IMG/VR virus record: IMGVR_UViG_3300001373_000014
Location: 5,126 to 29,759 of that record
Source of the DNA: a virus
Strand: one strand, 5' to 3'
Length of the DNA stretch: 24,634 nucleotides
A program made the position numbers and the translations under genes. The notes under the pieces are model-generated. The model was not told the DNA's origin. It searched no databases and saw nothing but the letters and a program-made list of their open reading frames with translations. Shown piece by piece: positions 13,304 to 22,633 of this stretch (its first letter is position 1; each line of letters begins with the position of its first letter).

Positions 13304-13376
13304 TGCGTGGTGGAGCAGATGGAAGCTCGTGAGACTCATAATCTCAAGGCCATGGGTTCGAGTCCCATTCACGCTA
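13304..13376 (+). tRNA. tRNA with CAT anticodon, initiator-like
   Basis: It folds as a full cloverleaf. The acceptor TGCGTGG/TCACGCT has a T.T mismatch at 1:72 and G.T at 7:66. The D stem is GAGC/GCTC; the anticodon stem TGAGA/TCTCA has loop CTCATAA and anticodon CAT at 13337-13339; the T stem ATGGG/CCCAT has loop TTCGAGT; the discriminator is A13376. CTA rather than CCA follows, so CCA must be added after processing. The 1:72 mismatch and the A11:U24 pair are hallmarks of bacterial initiator tRNA, and GTGGAGCAG and AGCTCGT match the E. coli initiator as I remember it. The three G:C pairs of the initiator anticodon stem are missing, so an elongator Met or an Ile (AUA) role is not excluded. 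Confidence 0.9.
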
Positions 13377-13411
13377 CTAAGTATTAAACCAATTAATAAA
13401 ATAACTACATT

Positions 13412-15165: not shown

Positions 15166-16329
15166 ATGGCTGATTTTTCATTAACCACTGTCTTTGTGGT
15201 TCCAGTAGGACAAACTGCGCTTCCTAGCTCTGGCTCCACACAAAACCTAACTCCTGGTCAGTTTGGTATTTATCGCAACGATTATTCTGTAGCTAATGCA
15301 GGAAACATCGCTGCAGCTCCTTATTTCTATCTAGCTCAAGGTAGAGCTAATACCTTTTTACAAGGGTCTAAACGTTCTGATAAAATTAAAGGATGTGCTA
15401 CAGCAAACTGTACTTCTAATGTAACTGAATGGTATAAAGTTAGTGGGTGTTCTACTCCTGCAACTCAAATTACTGATGTTTCAGGGTTTAGTGTAGGTTG
15501 TGGTGAAGTTCTTACATTAACATTAAGAGCACACTCTAGTTATATTGATACATTGTATTTCAATGGATTCACACGATCAGTAACTGTTCAAGCACCTTGT
15601 TGTGATTGTGATGGTGGAGATCCATGTGTTGATGTTGATACTGATGCATTGATTAATCAATTGATTACCAAATTAACTCAAACTATTAAAGGAACTAACC
15701 CTGATAACATCAGCTTTAGTACTTTCTGGAACTTTGAAAATGTTGGTGGAACAATTCTTCGTATTTCAGCGAAACCTTTAACAGCATATGGACAAACATG
15801 TGATGTTGCTGCTTTCCCTTTTGAATATGACAGAATGTATTTTAGAACTTTTGTTTACAGTGGACCAGCAACTACTGCTGACTTTATTGTAGCAGATTCT
15901 TGTAACATTGTTGCAAATTCTGTAATCACTCAACGTTCTTCTTATGCTACTGGTACTTCAGCAGAAATTGCTCAATTAGAGAAAAACTATTACAGCTATC
16001 AAGCAGGGTATTTAAAACACCTTTATAGAATGGCTGGATATAATGAAAATTTTGAAACCTATGTAGATAGTGGTTCAAATTATACAACTTATTATATCAA
16101 GTTCAATGATATTGACAAAACTGCTCAAAACTGGAATGCTAATCTTGCTACAGACAGTTCTGTAATTATTGCTGCTGTTACAGGATCTACAGTTGCTACA
16201 GAAATTGAAAGTGTATTAGAAGCTGCTTTAGGAACTGTTGCTGACAACAATGCTTGTATTACAACTACAACTACTACTAGTGCTGCTCCAACAACCACCA
16301 CTACTACTAGTTCTACAAACATTCCTTAA
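15166..16329 (+). CDS. Virion structural protein with Thr-rich C-terminal tail
   Basis: The 387-residue product starts MADFSLTTVFVVPVGQTALP and has the segment LTPGQFGIYRNDYS, of a sort found near the N-terminus of tail-tube or sheath-like proteins. A Cys cluster (QAPCCDCDGGDPCVDVDTD, about 143-162) separates two domains, and further Cys residues (GCATANCTSN, GCSTPATQ) suggest disulphides or metal sites. From about residue 366 the protein ends in Thr/Ser/Ala/Pro repeats (TTTTTTSAAPTTTTTTSS), the same linker type as in the fibre genes downstream. Codon bias is capsid-like, implying high copy number. It could be a tube, decoration or capsid-fibre protein. A strong terminator follows. Confidence 0.65.
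   Translation: MADFSLTTVFVVPVGQTALPSSGSTQNLTPGQFGIYRNDYSVANAGNIAAAPYFYLAQGRANTFLQGSKRSDKIKGCATANCTSNVTEWYKVSGCSTPATQITDVSGFSVGCGEVLTLTLRAHSSYIDTLYFNGFTRSVTVQAPCCDCDGGDPCVDVDTDALINQLITKLTQTIKGTNPDNISFSTFWNFENVGGTILRISAKPLTAYGQTCDVAAFPFEYDRMYFRTFVYSGPATTADFIVADSCNIVANSVITQRSSYATGTSAEIAQLEKNYYSYQAGYLKHLYRMAGYNENFETYVDSGSNYTTYYIKFNDIDKTAQNWNANLATDSSVIIAAVTGSTVATEIESVLEAALGTVADNNACITTTTTTSAAPTTTTTTSSTNIP
16261..16320 (+). repeat. ACN microsatellite coding a Thr-rich tail
   Basis: Imperfect tandem ACA/ACT/ACC codons interrupted by AGT, GCT and CCA encode the C-terminal Thr/Ser tail of the 15166-16329 protein. Similar tracts occur at 18575-18748, 20654-20680, 20922-21009 and 21189-21212. Confidence 0.8.
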
Positions 16330-16411: not shown

Positions 16412-16966
16412 ATGCCAACATTAAAATTAGATTTTGTTGTATTACCTACCAATGATATTGAAACTCTTGGTTTACAAGATATTTCAACCTATCCTGATGA
16501 TCCTCCTGTTGTATCTGCACCAACAATAGAAATAACTCCGCCTTCATTTAATACTGTGAGTCTTCCCTTTGTTGTAGAAGAATATAATGGATTTAACTCA
16601 TACACTTTAGGTATCACTGCAGTGGATGTATATGAACCTCTACCTGATGGTATATATCATTTTAAATATTCTATAGCTCCAGCATATGAAAACTATGTTG
16701 AAAAATCTTTTCTTCGTACAGATCTTTTACAACAAAAATTTGATGAAGCATTTATGACATTAGATATGATGGAATGTGATCAGGCAATTAAAAAACAATC
16801 GTTTGTAGACCTTATGACAATTTATTTCTTTATGCAGGGTGCTATAGCAGCAGCAAATAATTGTGCAGAAATAGAAGCAAATAAGTTATATTTGCAAGCA
16901 GATAGAATGTTAACCACTTTTATACGACATGATTGTGGTTGTTCAGGAACCAACTATTTAAATTAA
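16412..16966 (+). CDS. Hypothetical virion-associated protein, 184 residues
   Basis: The N-terminal half is beta-rich and Pro/Thr-rich (PTIEITPPSFNTVSLPFVVE; PDGIYHFKYSIAPAYENYV), resembling an Ig-like or attachment domain. The C-terminal half is helical with Cys residues (MTLDMMECDQAIKKQSFVDL; AAANNCAEIEANKLYLQADR) and ends HDCGCSGTNYLN. No known family is recognised. It opens the fibre cassette directly after the terminator, 6 nt ahead of a Cys-rich micro-ORF. A role in fibre attachment or as a chaperone for the fibre genes behind it is plausible from position. I see no promoter of its own. Confidence 0.6.
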   Translation: MPTLKLDFVVLPTNDIETLGLQDISTYPDDPPVVSAPTIEITPPSFNTVSLPFVVEEYNGFNSYTLGITAVDVYEPLPDGIYHFKYSIAPAYENYVEKSFLRTDLLQQKFDEAFMTLDMMECDQAIKKQSFVDLMTIYFFMQGAIAAANNCAEIEANKLYLQADRMLTTFIRHDCGCSGTNYLN

Positions 16967-16972
16967 ATCAAT

Positions 16973-17116
16973 ATGGCAACATGTAAAAACTGTGGAGCTC
17001 AAGTGGGTTGTGGCTGCCAATTAAAAAATGGACTTTGTACATATTGTCAAAGTAAATTATCAACAACTCAAAATACAAATAGCAATGTTATATTCAAAGC
17101 TTACCAACTGTCCTGA
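16973..17116 (+). CDS. 47-residue Cys-rich zinc-ribbon-like protein
   Basis: The peptide MATCKNCGAQVGCGCQLKNG continues LCTYCQSKL and ends at TGA (17114-17116). Six Cys in the order CxxC...CxC...CxxC look like a compact zinc ribbon. The last 30 codons overlap the +1 frame of the next ORF, which itself has a TNCPECEE CxxC pair. The two may therefore be halves of one gene separated by a frameshift. The Cys-rich N-terminus recalls those of the two fibre proteins downstream (MSCSNCFNGC, MSCQDPCSNK). Coding is supported by the 6-nt gap to the upstream stop and by the Cys spacing. Confidence 0.55.
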   Translation: MATCKNCGAQVGCGCQLKNGLCTYCQSKLSTTQNTNSNVIFKAYQLS

Positions 17117-17216
17117 GTGTGAAGAGATTCCTGCTTTATTAGCAGATATAGATTGCAAAATTAAAGTATTTCTAGTTATGCTATATTTGCTCTCTTACAG
17201 TACAAAAAAATATTAA
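17028..17216 (+). CDS. 62-residue Cys-containing ORF in +1 frame, possible frameshift partner
   Basis: The frame opens at 17028, but the protein-like part starts about residue 20 (MLYSKLTNCPECEEIPALLA), so the true start could be ATG at 17085 or the coding could continue from the 16973 ORF by a +1 shift. The C-terminus is hydrophobic (KIKVFLVMLYLLSYSTKKY), perhaps a membrane-active or buried helix. The frame ends TAA, followed at once by the ATG of a 28-codon ORF. The role is unknown. Overlap with the zinc-ribbon ORF over 89 nt means at least part of one of the two is not independent. Confidence 0.45.
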   Translation: MDFVHIVKVNYQQLKIQIAMLYSKLTNCPECEEIPALLADIDCKIKVFLVMLYLLSYSTKKY

Positions 17217-17218
17217 TA

Positions 17219-17305
17219 ATGAAAAATTGTAATCCAGATTATTTATCTACCTTTACAATACCAATGATAGCTAGTAGAATTAAAATTTTAAAATATAAAC
17301 CATGA
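17219..17305 (+). CDS. 28-residue micro-ORF coupled to tail-fibre gene
   Basis: ATG at 17219 (3 nt after the previous stop) to TGA at 17303-17305 encodes MKNCNPDYLSTFTIPMIASR followed by IKILKYKP. The stop overlaps the fibre gene start as ATGA, a 4-nt overlap typical of translational coupling, which is the main reason to list it. The single Cys near the N-terminus again follows the local style. It may be a translated leader for the fibre gene rather than a functional protein. Confidence 0.4.
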   Translation: MKNCNPDYLSTFTIPMIASRIKILKYKP

Positions 17306-18402
17306 GTTGTTCAAATTGTTTTAATGGTTGCTCAGAAACCACAAGTGATAAATGTGTAAAATATACAGGAATAGCTGTTCCTGAATTAGGAATAGAAAAT
17401 GGAGATACTTTATTGAGTGTTGAAAGTGCCATCACTACTTATTTACTTACAGCATTAGATGGAACAGGAATAGTTCCATATATCAATCCAGCATCATTGT
17501 GTGCCCTTGTAACAGGTTATTTACCTGGTAGTGGTACCATAACACTAATTAATGTAATTGATGCCTTAATTAAGTCTATTTGTGATTTACAAGAACAGGT
17601 AGATGGAAATACATCAGCAATCAATATATTGAATGCTGATTATACTATTGGATGTTTGACAGGAGTTACAGCTTCCTCAGATACTCATGCTATACTACAA
17701 GCAACAGTAACTAAAGTTTGTGCAGTTAGTTCTGCCCTTACAGCTCTTGCTTTAGATCTTTCCACAAATTATGTAGCAATTGCAGATATTGATGCATATA
17801 TTCAAGCATACTTAGATTCTATTGGTGGAGGTGGTGGAGGATCCACTACTAACATGAAAGATAAAATGGTTCCTTATACAGTGGTAGAATATTATGGAAG
17901 TCTTACTGTTTTTGATGGAACAGGTGCTGGAACAGGAGTTTGGGATAAAGTTTATCTTTGTAATGGTCAAAATAGTACTCCTGATAAAAGAGGAAGAGTT
18001 GGTGTTGGTATTACAGATGGAACAATGTTGGGAGCTACAATGTCTGCAACTGTTAATCCTTCTACTCCTGGTAATCCAAGTTATTCTTTAAACACTCCAA
18101 TGGGTTCTAATACTGTTACATTAACCAGTGCTACTCAGATTCCATCTCATACACATGCTCCTACAGTTACAGTTACTGATCCTGGACACAGTCACACTAC
18201 AGAAATTGGAGGATATAAGGATGCAAACACTTCAGGATCTTCTTATACTTGGGTACAAAAAGGAACTGGAGTTTTTCTACCTTCTTCTACAATAACTACA
18301 GGAATTACAGTGGGAGTGTCTAATGCATACACAGGAGGAACAGACTCTCATGCAAACATTCAACCATCTTTAGGTTGTTATTATATAATGTATATACCAT
18401 AA
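17302..18402 (+). CDS. Tail fibre with collar domain and HxH motifs
   Basis: Three parts are visible in 366 residues. First, a Cys-rich N-terminal module (1-50: MSCSNCFNGC..., Y-T-G...P..GI...D.L) is shared with the next gene. Second, a helical shaft (about 80-170) ends in a glycine hinge (GGGGGG). Third, the C-terminal domain from about 185 has the phage tail-collar signature: PDKRGRVGVGITDG, TSATQIPSHTHAPT, DPGHSHTTE and the final DSHANIQPSLGCYYIMYI. The HxH motifs in such trimeric fibre tips bind iron or other metal ions in T4-type fibres. The protein is most likely part of the adsorption apparatus that recognises host surface glycans or proteins. It is the best recognised member of the fibre cassette. 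Confidence 0.85.
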   Translation: MSCSNCFNGCSETTSDKCVKYTGIAVPELGIENGDTLLSVESAITTYLLTALDGTGIVPYINPASLCALVTGYLPGSGTITLINVIDALIKSICDLQEQVDGNTSAINILNADYTIGCLTGVTASSDTHAILQATVTKVCAVSSALTALALDLSTNYVAIADIDAYIQAYLDSIGGGGGGSTTNMKDKMVPYTVVEYYGSLTVFDGTGAGTGVWDKVYLCNGQNSTPDKRGRVGVGITDGTMLGATMSATVNPSTPGNPSYSLNTPMGSNTVTLTSATQIPSHTHAPTVTVTDPGHSHTTEIGGYKDANTSGSSYTWVQKGTGVFLPSSTITTGITVGVSNAYTGGTDSHANIQPSLGCYYIMYIP

Positions 18403-18412
18403 AACCAAATAA

Positions 18413-18934
18413 ATGAGTTGTCAAGATCCTTGCTCTAATAAAACATCATCTGATGATATTTCTTATGTTGGACCAAACTTACCTGGTTCAGGCATACAAA
18501 CTTGTGATAATTTGACTCTAGTTATACAAAAGTTGGATAATAAACTTATTGTATTACAGAATGAAATTTATCGTACAACTACCACTACAACATCAACATC
18601 ATCTACATCAACAACAACTAGCACAACCACTATAGCCCCTAGCACAACTACAACCACTTCTTCTTCATCAACAACTACAACTACAAGTTCTACAACTACT
18701 ACTAGTACAAGTTCAACAACAACAACTACTACTACATTAGCTCCTGTCACTTGTAAAACATTTACAATACAATCTACTCAAAATAGTGCAAGTTGGTTAG
18801 CTTTAGATTGTGATGATAATATAGTGGGAGGATTAATACTATTGGCAGGTACAACAATTAGTACAGGATGTATATGGAATAATTCATTAGAGTTATATGA
18901 TATGACAATTATCTCTCAAGTAGATTGTCCATAA
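18413..18934 (+). CDS. Modular fibre protein: Cys N-module, Thr linker, 60-residue Cys module
   Basis: Of its 173 residues, 1-50 repeat the N-terminal module of the collar fibre (MSCQDPCSNK..., Y-V-G...P..GI...D.L). Residues 55-110 are almost pure Thr/Ser with a few Ala/Pro/Leu (STTTIAPSTTTTTSSSSTTT). Residues 114-173 form a compact module (CKTFTIQS...WLALDCDDN...GC...QVDCP). The last module aligns with that of the 20703 gene: both have Cys, 17 residues, Asp-Cys, an Asn 3 residues later, and a terminal Cys-Pro about 39 residues on. It is probably an adhesin-like appendage anchored at the same site as the collar fibre. The linker would be extended, and O-glycosylation by the host is conceivable. 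Confidence 0.75.
   Translation: MSCQDPCSNKTSSDDISYVGPNLPGSGIQTCDNLTLVIQKLDNKLIVLQNEIYRTTTTTTSTSSTSTTTSTTTIAPSTTTTTSSSSTTTTTSSTTTTSTSSTTTTTTTLAPVTCKTFTIQSTQNSASWLALDCDDNIVGGLILLAGTTISTGCIWNNSLELYDMTIISQVDCP
18575..18748 (+). repeat. Long ACN microsatellite coding the Thr/Ser linker
   Basis: About 55 codons are almost all ACA/ACT/ACC mixed with TCA/TCT/AGT/AGC, encoding the linker of the 18413-18934 protein. This is the longest of the five related tracts in the window and a natural site for length change by slippage or for homologous exchange. Confidence 0.85.
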
Positions 18935-18949
18935 TAAAAATAAAAACCA

Positions 18950-20683
18950 ATGACAGCAGTAATAACATTAACTTTAGCAGGAGCAGACACAGGCCCATTT
19001 AATTTGTATTCAAATGTAGATGGGTATATTTCTGCTTTTGCAAATAATATAACAAGAGCACAACTTCTTGCAGGATATGCTACTGATGCTCTTCCTAATT
19101 TTACCACTATAGTAAAAATAAAATCTGTTGGAGAATGTTTGAATTCTGTTGAAGTAGTTGTTCCTCCACAAACTTGTTATAACTTCCTTCCAACAGATAG
19201 TTATTATCTTTTGGATTATATAATTAAACCTACTACTAGTTACTTCTATGGATTCTTTGATGGATATGTAGAAAATGATATTCCTACATTATATAAAAAT
19301 TTAGTTAAACTTAATTTAGATCTTACTTTAGATACTTCTTTTGATGTAGGAGTTGGATTTGATGAAATACTTTATACTGGTTGTTCTATTTTAGAACAAC
19401 CAGATGGTAAAATAATAGTGACAGGAACTTTCTTGACTTATCAGGGAGTCACTAAAAATAGAATAGTAAGACTTAATACTGATGCTAGTATAGATGCTAC
19501 ATTTATTACAGGTACTGGATTTGATGGATTTACACAAAGTCCTGCTATAGATTCTAATGATTCTGTAATTATTACAGGATTATTTTCTGATTATAATGGA
19601 ACACCTGCTTTTAGAATAGCAAGACTTCTTTCTAATGGAACTATAGATCCAACCTTTATAACAGGAACAGGTTTCAATAACACCACTACAGATGTATTAG
19701 TCAATCCAGATAACTCAATGTTTATTCTTGGATACTTTGATACATATAATGGTGTAGCAGTTTCTCCTGGTATAATTAAATTAATGGAAGATGGTTCTGT
19801 AGATCCTTCATTTAATGCTGGAACAGGTATAGACCCATATCTTCCTAATAATGCTAACTATTTTGCTAGGATAGCAGGAGAAACATCATTCTATGTAGGA
19901 GGATATCTTACAGATTATAATGGTACAACTATATCTCAAATTATTAAATTGAATATAGATGGAACAGTTGACACTTCATTTAACTCAGGAACAGGATTTG
20001 ATGGAATAAATTTATATTCAATGAATGTAATATGGGGAGATAAACTTCTTATAGAAGGAGATTTCTTGAATTATAATGGAACACCTTCTAATTATTCTAT
20101 TATTCTTAATTCAGATGGAACAGTTTATTATACATTTGATCTTGTTTACAGAGGTCCTGTAGTTATAGGGAATAATCTTTTTGCAGCTGAAGATAATGAT
20201 TGTTTAAAATTATTGCATACTTTTGTCCCAGATGTTACACCTCCAACTATCATTAATGGGGGTGCTTTATATCAAGCTAATCCAGTAGATCCTTGTGATC
20301 CTCTGATGTATCCATATACTGTTGAAATTCCTTTTCCAACTCCTTATAGTTTTGGTTTAATGTTTAGTCCTTATAAAATATGGAGTGATATTGAATACAT
20401 AGAAGTTATGAGTGTTACTCTTGTAGCAGGATTAGAAATTAAATATAATGGAATAACAGTGACTCCTGGAGACTTACTTTATCCTATTTCAGCAGATGTA
20501 TGGGTAAATACTATGGAAACTATTAGAAGTACTTTTGATTGTGATTTAATATCAGAAGTGTGGACAGTAAGAATAAAATTGTATGATAGTCCTATATCAA
20601 ATGTAGCAAATTATACTATATATTTTAATCAACAATCATGTCCTGATTGTTTAACTACTACATCAACAACTACAACTATATAA
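18950..20683 (+). CDS. Beta-propeller (delta-60-type repeat) fibre protein
   Basis: Residues 1-72 are an N-terminal module (MTAVITLTLAGADTGPFNLY...) shared with the next gene. Residues about 115-400 hold six imperfect repeats of about 50-56 residues, each with 'RLN.DG.iD.tF..GtGF' then 'pD.ki...G.F..YNGt', e.g. LNIDGTVDTSFNSGTGFDG and LIEGDFLNYNGTP. This matches the delta-60 repeat family, which folds as beta-propeller blades and is frequent in secreted Bacteroidota proteins. Residues 420-565 form another beta-rich domain with Cys. The end is a Thr tail (CLTTTSTTTTI). The protein is likely an adsorption or glycan-binding spike. The propeller was probably acquired from a bacterial surface protein. 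The 577 residues are intact. Confidence 0.75.
   Translation: MTAVITLTLAGADTGPFNLYSNVDGYISAFANNITRAQLLAGYATDALPNFTTIVKIKSVGECLNSVEVVVPPQTCYNFLPTDSYYLLDYIIKPTTSYFYGFFDGYVENDIPTLYKNLVKLNLDLTLDTSFDVGVGFDEILYTGCSILEQPDGKIIVTGTFLTYQGVTKNRIVRLNTDASIDATFITGTGFDGFTQSPAIDSNDSVIITGLFSDYNGTPAFRIARLLSNGTIDPTFITGTGFNNTTTDVLVNPDNSMFILGYFDTYNGVAVSPGIIKLMEDGSVDPSFNAGTGIDPYLPNNANYFARIAGETSFYVGGYLTDYNGTTISQIIKLNIDGTVDTSFNSGTGFDGINLYSMNVIWGDKLLIEGDFLNYNGTPSNYSIILNSDGTVYYTFDLVYRGPVVIGNNLFAAEDNDCLKLLHTFVPDVTPPTIINGGALYQANPVDPCDPLMYPYTVEIPFPTPYSFGLMFSPYKIWSDIEYIEVMSVTLVAGLEIKYNGITVTPGDLLYPISADVWVNTMETIRSTFDCDLISEVWTVRIKLYDSPISNVANYTIYFNQQSCPDCLTTTSTTTTI
20654..20680 (+). repeat. Short ACN tract coding a Thr tail
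   Basis: Nine codons, mainly ACT/ACA with one TCA and a final ATA, end the propeller protein just before its stop. It looks like a linker whose following domain is absent. Confidence 0.7.
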
Positions 20684-20702
20684 ACCAATTAAATTTATTA
20701 TC

Positions 20703-21218
20703 ATGACAGTATTAATAACCTTAACAGCAGCTGGGACAGACTCTGGTCCTTTTGATTTATATTCAAATTTTGATGGATATGTCACTGCATTTGAAACAGG
20801 AGTTAGTAAAGCAGCATTATTAGGTGGATATACCTCTGCATTAGTGCCAGACTATACAACAATAATTAGAGTGATGTCTACAGGAGATTGTATAAATTAT
20901 GTAAATATAACATTAGAAAACACTACAACAACAACAACATCTACTAGTAGCACAACTACTACTACTACTGTAGCACCTACTACTACTACAACTTCTACTG
21001 CAGTACCAGGTTGTAGTCTATATGAAAGTGCCCCTTATGATGATCAAATTACTATATCTTATATTGATTGCAATGGTAATCCTCAAGCTACTATAGATTT
21101 CTGTTACTCTGCTATATGTACATATGAAGTGTGTGCTCAAAGTATTATAAGTAGTACTGAGACTATGTTTAATATGGGACCATGTCCTACTACAACAACC
21201 ACTACCACTACACCATAG
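20703..21218 (+). CDS. Modular fibre protein: MT N-module, Thr linker, 60-residue Cys module, Thr tail
   Basis: The protein has 171 residues. Residues 1-73 (MTVLITLTAAGTDSGPFDLY...) align without gaps over most of their length with the start of the propeller protein. Residues 74-101 are a Thr/Ser linker (TTTTTTSTSSTTTTTTVAP). Residues 104-162 repeat the module of the 18413 gene (CSLYESAP...YIDCNGN...GPCP), here with three additional Cys (C-x4-C-x4-C). The protein ends TTTTTTTTP at a TAG stop. The block order mixes elements from both upstream genes, which is the clearest sign of module shuffling in the cassette. It is followed by a strong terminator. Confidence 0.75.
   Translation: MTVLITLTAAGTDSGPFDLYSNFDGYVTAFETGVSKAALLGGYTSALVPDYTTIIRVMSTGDCINYVNITLENTTTTTTSTSSTTTTTTVAPTTTTTSTAVPGCSLYESAPYDDQITISYIDCNGNPQATIDFCYSAICTYEVCAQSIISSTETMFNMGPCPTTTTTTTTP
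20922..21009 (+). repeat. ACN microsatellite coding a Thr linker
   Basis: About 29 codons of ACA/ACT with AGT/AGC/TCT and a GTAGCACCT interruption link the N-module and the Cys module of the 20703-21218 protein. A second short tract (21189-21212) codes the Thr tail of the same protein. Confidence 0.85.
21189..21212 (+). repeat. Short ACN tract coding a terminal Thr tail
   Basis: Eight consecutive Thr codons (ACT ACA ACA ACC ACT ACC ACT ACA) precede CCA TAG. It matches the linker tracts in composition but leads nowhere, as if a downstream domain were lost or not yet gained. Confidence 0.75.
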
Positions 21219-21421: not shown

Positions 21422-22633
21422 ATGAATGAAAATCAAAATTTATTGCAGGAATTAGAAGAATTATTAAGACAGAAAAAGAGCAAAAAATTCTATGCTGAAA
21501 AGCTGGGAATAAGTGAAGAAGAAGTCAGTCTTCTAATGAAAGAATTAAGAAACAAAGGGGAAGAGCCTCCTGAATGCAATTCTTCAATAAGAAAAGTAAA
21601 TGTTGAGAAAGGTACTATAGAAAGTACAATAACTACAAAATTTGAACCAAAAGATGATATAGAACTAGCAGCATTACATAAGATAAATTTAGACAAATTC
21701 ATAATTACAAACTACTGGTCTAAATTACAACCAAATGGAGATTTTACATCTTCAGTCTTCTCTAAAAGAAAACAACCATCAGATTATACACAAGAAGATT
21801 TTGTTAAATTTTTAGACTCTTTTACCCCTAAAAATATTACTATTACCAAAGTAAGAACAGATATTGATAAAGAATTTATTGATATTGAATTATCCCTTTC
21901 AGATTATCACTTAGCAAAAAAACAAATTGATGGTGATAATGATCCAACTACAAGAGCTCTTCGTTACTACACTGCAGCAGTAGAACTTATTAAGAAAGTA
22001 AGAAGTATTTATAACATAGATACAATTGTTTTTCCTATATCAAATGATTTTTTCCACACTGATAATATACACAATACAACTACAAATTTTACTCCCCAAG
22101 ATACTATTATGGAATATCATTCTGAGTATGAGTTAGGGTTTGTACTATTAGTAGATACTATTAATATGTTGAGAAGTAACGGTAATACAGTAAAAGTGGT
22201 ATTGGTTCAAGGTAATCATGATAGAACAAAGTCTTTCTATTTGGCACATGCTTTAGAAGTTTTCTTTAAAAATCAATTAGATGTTGAATTTATTAGAGAA
22301 CATTCCACAATAAAAGGATTAACTTTGGGGAATACATTTATTGGTTGGCATCATGGGAATTGTAAAATAGATGATCTTCCTTTATTGTTTGCTACAAGTC
22401 CAAAATTTAGCAAGCAGTTTGGGGATGCTTTATACAGGGAAGTTCATACAGGAGATAAACATCATTATATGGCTAAAGAAGTTAAAGGGGTAAGAATACA
22501 ACAAATGCCTAGTTTGTCAGGTACAGATAAATGGCATGAAGATAATAATTTTGTAAACAGTGTAAGAGCTGCTCTTGTTTTAATGTATAATAAAATAACA
22601 GGTAAATCAGGAGAATTTGAAGTTCGCATTTAA
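21422..22633 (+). CDS. Calcineurin-like metallophosphoesterase with N-terminal HTH-like region
   Basis: The metal-binding motifs of the superfamily appear in order over 403 residues: DxH (Asp161-Tyr-His163, SLSDYHLAKK), an Asn-Asp pair (ISNDFFHTDN, 207-214), GNHD (264-267, VQGNHDRTKS), WHHG (309-312) and GDKHH (344-348). The enzyme should bind two metal ions and cleave phosphodiesters or phosphomonoesters; the substrate is unknown. Residues 5-45 (KKSKKFYAEKLGISEEEVSL) look like a small helix-turn-helix, suggesting DNA targeting. Phosphoesterases of this kind are known in crAss-like phages. It has its own promoter and begins a new unit that continues into tail-assembly genes. It may act on DNA, nucleotide signals or host defence products; none is shown. 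Confidence 0.85.
   Translation: MNENQNLLQELEELLRQKKSKKFYAEKLGISEEEVSLLMKELRNKGEEPPECNSSIRKVNVEKGTIESTITTKFEPKDDIELAALHKINLDKFIITNYWSKLQPNGDFTSSVFSKRKQPSDYTQEDFVKFLDSFTPKNITITKVRTDIDKEFIDIELSLSDYHLAKKQIDGDNDPTTRALRYYTAAVELIKKVRSIYNIDTIVFPISNDFFHTDNIHNTTTNFTPQDTIMEYHSEYELGFVLLVDTINMLRSNGNTVKVVLVQGNHDRTKSFYLAHALEVFFKNQLDVEFIREHSTIKGLTLGNTFIGWHHGNCKIDDLPLLFATSPKFSKQFGDALYREVHTGDKHHYMAKEVKGVRIQQMPSLSGTDKWHEDNNFVNSVRAALVLMYNKITGKSGEFEVRI

Follow-up and report, generated by a model that had tools for sequence, protein, structure and literature searches.

Phage receptor-binding proteins built from modules behind conserved N-terminal anchors are well known. In the modular tailspikes and fibers of Ackermannviridae, Klebsiella phages and Escherichia coli O-antigen phages, a conserved N-terminal base is joined at a defined junction to an exchangeable C-terminal receptor-binding part, while the BACON/Ig-like modular adhesins of gut Crassvirales bear tandem adhesive domains that vary between relatives, and tail proteins under diversity-generating retroelements (DGRs) rapidly change the part that contacts the host. 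Crassvirales vary strikingly in how many genes, and of which types, their tail-spike regions contain, and retroelements and BACON duplication have been named as causes of this diversity (PMC10136315). The subject of this study is a fiber-gene cassette in a 24.6-kb stretch (24,634 nucleotides; hereafter the window) of the 29.8-kb IMG/VR virus record IMGVR_UViG_3300001373_000014, a piece of an uncultured crAss-like phage. The cassette shares traits with all three kinds of system but departs from each. Unlike in modular tailspikes, several unrelated bases and a tail-tip protein here draw on one pool of heads through threonine (Thr) linkers, and a protein often carries more than one head, each a small domain; unlike in the BACON/Ig-like adhesins, the joints are Thr linkers; and, in contrast to DGR tail proteins, whole domains are replaced. 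Modular receptor-binding proteins as such are known, whereas Thr joints common to four unrelated carriers appear to be new: no account of polythreonine or Thr-rich linkers as shared joints in phage fibers was found in the open-access literature. Our data suggest, with a probability that we put at roughly 0.78, that the cassette is a plug-and-socket adhesin display of an uncultured crAss-like lineage, in which heads are exchanged via the linkers.

The relatives analyzed were 125 loci, no two of them identical; the cassette is complete in 72, and together they hold 549 cassette open reading frames (ORFs). Most of these ORFs (466) begin with one of three base families, A (270), N0 (125) or B (71), which are unrelated to one another, always lie within the first 40 residues and are never internal. 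In nearly all complete cassettes the bases follow a single order, namely N0, A fused to a collar tip (A+collar), further A genes and finally B genes, with the number of further A and of B genes varying between loci. A first-pass annotation of the window, made from the sequence alone, had proposed four consecutive fiber genes in which blocks are freely combined and heads are exchanged on two anchor types. Copy number and heads do vary as this would require, but the order of bases is fixed, and the cassette has three bases rather than two: the annotation had missed N0, which is encoded directly upstream of gene 17302 (window genes are named by their first position) and has a match in all 125 loci, with an intact core of ~88 amino acids (aa) in relatives. 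Nor is the collar an exchanged block on A, as had been supposed, since A+collar occurs in 116 of the 125 loci and is a core gene. Two of the 72 complete cassettes (L071 and L073) have a first-position A gene without the collar tip.

The content of the cassette is not fixed among homologs, and in close relatives conserved N-terminal bases carry unrelated C-terminal parts. Across 85 close pairs with complete cassettes, 730 head comparisons found the head absent from the partner in 63% of cases, whole in 34% and partial in only 3%; in the same pairs, N0 was whole in 99% and B in 80%. Exchange is confined to a defined junction. In a distance-matched test of 31 pairs, no genome entered more than twice and the compared positions lay a median of 64 nt apart inside heads and 55 nt apart across linkers; similarity switched in 30 of 102 comparisons across a linker versus 2 of 121 within a head (Fisher p = 1.2e-9). 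An early count had placed 62% of similarity ends in linkers, which make up 10% of the sequence; it was set aside because low-complexity runs lengthen alignments, and linker-masked, all-or-none and distance-matched tests replaced it.

Individual cases place the junction at the sequence level. The backbones of L001 and L016 are 99.9% identical, while their N0 proteins measure 340 aa and 121 aa: the longer carries a Fib_succ_major head (Pfam E = 1e-40) and the shorter ends in a Thr linker, with divergence beginning within the first Thr codons and identity returning ~11 nt before the next start codon. In L008 and L043 the B base is 99% identical but the head has been replaced, the L008 head having no counterpart in L043 above 32%. 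Heads are also common to unrelated bases, as in L017 (base B) and L052 (base A), which share a head at 86% DNA identity from the Thr linker to the C-terminus. The first-pass annotation was correct in its core prediction that heads are exchanged on more than one base type, with the Thr linkers as joints. A propeller relative on base A in L024 (41% over 135 aa) was not counted, as Pfam does not confirm it.

The cassettes of the 125 loci hold 454 heads. Recognizable ones include Fib_succ_major (FISUMP), collagen-like, S74 chaperone, several propeller families, CBM_5_12, CHU_C and Lcl-type domains, some of which are adhesin-type; the Pfam matches of 97 cassette proteins included no BACON family, in contrast to the BACON/Ig-like adhesins, and no depolymerase-type family. 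The commonest head is an unnamed cysteine (Cys) module of ~60 residues, two or three of them cysteines that are nearly invariant, for which no solved structure was matched. It is carried by A, B, N0 and a muzzle-like tail-tip protein of the relatives (L248-L327), which matches crAss001 gp44 (blastp E = 9e-6). This protein is a fourth carrier of linkers and heads, overlooked in the first-pass annotation: 69 of its 70 complete copies have a Thr linker in the C-terminal part, often with heads, and 32 of its 114 heads are related to cassette heads, usually on A or N0 and in two cases on B. In most loci B genes follow the muzzle-like gene.

Behind the bases of the 125 loci lie 559 linkers rich in Thr and serine (Ser), with 57% Thr, 23% Ser and a median length of 17 residues. 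Among genes near the cassette, Thr linkers are nearly confined to the cassette itself and to the protein in the slot of crAss001 gp36. A Thr tail closes 105 of 319 A, B and N0 proteins, about one third; such tails may be empty sockets or may have a function of their own. A short motif near linkers, C.FTG.A, was too rare to interpret.

In the window itself, the four ORFs and their block layout are as the first-pass annotation described (Table 1), and the similarities of their N-terminal modules persist in profile alignment as hidden Markov model (HMM) families. The B bases of 18950 and 20703 share 49% identity over 71 aa (E ~1e-22; score 214, with shuffles reaching 49 at most). The A bases of 17302 and 18413 are only weakly similar pairwise (32%, E = 0.01-0.03 within a six-protein set, a score reached by 0 of 500 shuffles) but real as an HMM family: searches begun from four A seeds end at one common set of 183 proteins, in every case at the N-terminus, and give 0 matches outside the cassette. 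The Cys modules of 18413 and 20703 fail pairwise comparison (8 of 500 shuffles equal the score), and on that comparison alone the shared module would have been rejected; this was reversed by profile iteration, in which the two seeds converge, recovering 167 and 177 heads, 162 of them common to both; the two profiles align in hhalign with a probability of 98.8 (E = 9e-17).

The propeller of 18950 belongs to Pfam DUF5122/delta-60 (E = 6e-42, 142 bits versus a curated cutoff of 27). In phage records only the repeat region of this gene was matched, in two Stenotrophomonas phages, and A+collar and base B had 0 matches in 50,697 such records. For the collar of 17302 the matches are tail-protein PHROG 8763 (E = 1e-16) and, for its tip, a solved tail fiber (9qgo, E = 0.0013); T4 Gp10_C (PF21939) was detected in 10 of 20 homologs (best E = 4e-4), the window copy giving no such match, and the alignment shows conserved H.H pairs. 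The tip of the collar gene differs between relatives. In the predicted structure of A+collar, a flexible N-terminus and a helical shaft precede a poorly modeled tip; the mean pLDDT of the whole prediction is 59, a low value that is expected because a probably trimeric fiber was folded as a monomer. Base B, by comparison, is predicted confidently (72 residues, mostly beta, pLDDT 94.5). Its predicted structure has no significant match in the PDB, and its fold recurs in five predicted, undescribed proteins of the unclassified Virus NIOZ-UU157 (Foldseek E = 1.5e-7 to 8e-5, 32-49% identity). The Virus NIOZ-UU157 genome may hold a similar cassette.

The window copy of N0 is disrupted: its reading frame stops at 17216 and the remainder lies in another frame, through either real decay or a local assembly error. 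ORFs of 47-50 aa, comparable to the zinc-ribbon-like ORF of the window, precede the N0 gene in many relatives (a subgroup).

Table 1. Features of the fiber cassette and its upstream border, in window positions.
Feature	Position	Strand	Basis
Virion protein in the slot of crAss001 gp36 (auxiliary capsid protein), with headless Thr tail	15166..16329	+	Synteny
Probable tail-hub protein A, gp38 slot; upstream cassette boundary	16412..16966	+	Gene order, hhalign, PHROG 31752
Cys-rich, zinc-ribbon-like ORF, 47 aa, overlapping the N0 remnant	16973..17116	+	Sequence
N0 base gene remnant, crAss001 gp39 slot, disrupted here	17085..17300	+	Match to N0 of relatives
Core fiber gene, 366 aa: A base followed by helical shaft and collar tip, the tip possibly of T4 Gp10_C/HxH type	17302..18402	+	Homologs, HMM
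A base of 17302	17302..17481	+	HMM families
A + Thr linker + Cys module gene, 173 aa	18413-18934	+	ORF, profiles
A base of 18413	18413..18574	+	HMM families
Thr/Ser linker of 18413	18575..18748	+	Composition
Cys-module head of 18413	18746..18925	+	Profile iteration
B + DUF5122 propeller gene, short Thr tail at end, 577 aa	18950-20683	+	ORF, Pfam
B base of 18950, predicted small beta-sandwich fold	18950..19165	+	Pairwise comparison, structure prediction
Head of 18950: DUF5122/delta-60 beta-propeller and trailing domain	19166..20647	+	Pfam; relatives on base B in L143 and L092
C-terminal Thr tail of 18950	20648..20680	+	Translation
B + Thr + Cys + Thr gene, 171 aa	20703-21218	+	ORF
B base of 20703	20703..20918	+	Pairwise comparison, structure prediction
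Thr/Ser linker of 20703	20922..21005	+	Composition
Cys-module head of 20703	21006..21182	+	Profile iteration
C-terminal Thr tail of 20703	21183..21215	+	Translation

These patterns could arise if each protein is held on the virion by its conserved base (N0, A or B), probably at the tail hub, with the Thr/Ser linkers serving as flexible spacers behind them and the interchangeable heads, many of carbohydrate-binding or adhesin type, contacting the host. Recombination between phages would then swap, add or remove whole heads, with crossovers in the Thr-codon linkers on the 5' side and at gene ends or in the next linker on the 3' side. Since the linkers all consist of ACN codons in a row, AC-to-AC pairing keeps the reading frame, and they may therefore serve as frame-safe joints even where the bases are unrelated. 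Domain types and gene position together suggest a role in adhesion and adsorption to host receptors, and a change of head probably alters what the phages stick to.

Several observations weigh against this account. The locus pairs compared lack phylogenetic independence. None of the three bases matches a solved structure or has a detectable crAss001 relative in profile comparison; N0 sits where crAss001 encodes gp39 (tail-hub protein B) but gave no hhalign match to it, and it is not classed as that protein because gene position alone agrees. Movement of heads between anchors, which the first-pass annotation had envisaged, is real across unrelated bases yet limited: 16 of 55 multi-locus head clusters span at least two base families, where random labels predict ~36, so most head turnover stays on one base type. 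The gp36-slot protein has a C-terminal Thr tail without a head in 146 of 147 copies, and such a tail may therefore have another job. Finally, Thr codon use in linkers is no more uniform than elsewhere and thus gives no sign of DNA-level selection for joints; the idea of specially uniform codon use in linkers was unsupported.

The last of these points bears on how active the linkers are. The Thr-codon tracts could be a maintained, frame-keeping recombination joint through which the three bases and the muzzle-like protein share one population-level pool of heads, with empty linkers able to receive them; we hold this extension tentatively, at rather less than even odds. Its main rival, to which we would give a nearly even chance, is ordinary tail-fiber mosaicism, in which linkers only mark the domain borders where chimeras survive and Thr tracts are protein spacers with no part in recombination. 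Head exchange belongs to this explanation too, which differs only on the active role of the linker DNA. Selection alone would put breakpoints between domains, great diversity of the tail-spike regions of crAss-like phages is on record (PMC10136315), and the ordinary codon use fits mosaicism, as does the brevity of the exact runs shared by two linkers of one genome (median 16 nt, at most 30 nt). However, the direct cases (L017/L052 and L001/L016) break inside the Thr codons themselves, and a single linker type is common to four unrelated carriers; both points count against mosaicism, though neither is decisive.

Alternatively, the Thr-linker proteins may decorate the capsid or virion surface, as a brush or a weak glycan-binding coat, rather than form tail adsorption fibers. 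The auxiliary capsid slot of the protein with the headless tail would suit such a role, crAss001 head fibers are docked by short N-termini (PMC10172136), and the Ig-like proteins of gut crassviruses are surface adhesins (PMC13370021). We nonetheless regard decoration as unlikely, given that the cassette sits between the tail-hub and ring slots, that the same heads and linkers occur on the muzzle-like tail tip, and that the first gene (17302) has a tip that may be of the T4 Gp10_C/HxH tail-fiber type.

Variable heads might also be produced by metagenome assembly across low-complexity Thr-codon repeats, since all relatives are metagenomic contigs and the breakpoints fall in repeats. Such misassembly is very improbable, however, because phages with 98% identity or more agree in 77 of 81 heads and in their order, even across metagenomes (8 of 8 in several pairs), and because the exact repeats within a genome are so short; moreover, genes stay open across the joints. 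A DGR, reported in linkage with tail genes in Crassvirales (PMC10136315) and compatible with the varying collar tip, is the least credible source of the variation, which goes by whole domains, and reverse transcriptase (PF00078) was found in 0 of 10 near-complete genomes (107-119 kb) in which controls were detected.

Plug-and-socket exchange of heads would thus offer a concrete mechanism by which an abundant uncultured phage group changes its host contacts without a retroelement, and may account in part for the diversity that has long been noted in crAss-like tail regions. If the linkers prove to be joints serving a shared pool, this would amount to retroelement-free host-range switching in the lineage. 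The grammar of base, linker and head could make heads predictable and cataloguable from metagenomes, and natural pairs in which a head is present or absent on 99.9% identical backbones could be used to compare host associations.

The lineage is identified by the genes around the cassette. The window codes for TerL, a P22-type portal and a crassvirus major capsid protein (MCP; Pfam Crass_capsid E = 5e-30, PHROG major head protein E = 1e-33), which places it in Crassvirales, and it contains a single tRNA gene (tRNA-Met, 13304-13377). A search of IMG/VR with the MCP recovered at least 599 related stretches, the best 80 of them 91-93% identical, whereas an MCP search of the 50,697 phage records found nothing closer than 25% identity. 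These results mark the lineage as abundant in metagenomes but essentially uncultured.

The genes around the cassette are arranged as in crAss001: gp31, MCP, gp33, ring, gp36 slot, gp38 slot, the cassette, gp40, gp42 and gp43. More broadly, the conserved order of portal, gp31, MCP, gp33, rings, auxiliary capsid protein (AUX), hub, R2, gp42, R1 and muzzle was found, with the ring, AUX and tail-hub protein B (THB) slots assigned by position only and the muzzle by the gp44 match in relatives. In hhalign, six flanking genes each had the same-slot gene as their best crAss001 match, with probabilities of 96 for gp42, 69 for gp31 and 62 for gp33 and weak matches (18-35) for gp38, gp40 and gp43. This order puts the fiber cassette directly after the tail-hub genes. 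The virion plan and the order around hub, ring and muzzle genes are those of the crAss001 tail (gp38/gp39 hub, gp44 muzzle), but the fiber genes of crAss001 (gp22-gp26) come after the portal, whereas the cassette of this lineage lies between hub and ring genes.

Of the two virion proteins upstream, the product of 16412 has gp38 as its best, though weak, crAss001 match (probability 18.5, E = 0.0013) and belongs to PHROG 31752, a virion structural protein, while the product of 15166 has no sequence match to crAss001 gp36. The Thr tail of the gp36-slot protein usually ends in [ST]T[LN]IP.

Base B had no match in genome contigs, and the MCP matched one short genome contig, binned as Tissierellales. 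This 13.4-kb contig (L247, JACIXZ010000023.1) in a Tissierellales metagenome-assembled genome encodes an MCP 85% identical to that of the window; it is probably a phage contig put in the wrong bin, and no host was therefore drawn from it. At the other end of the cassette, the closing metallophosphoesterase-like gene (21422-22633) is ~60-75% identical in some relatives and only 28-32% in others, a sequence pattern as if a distant homolog had taken its place.

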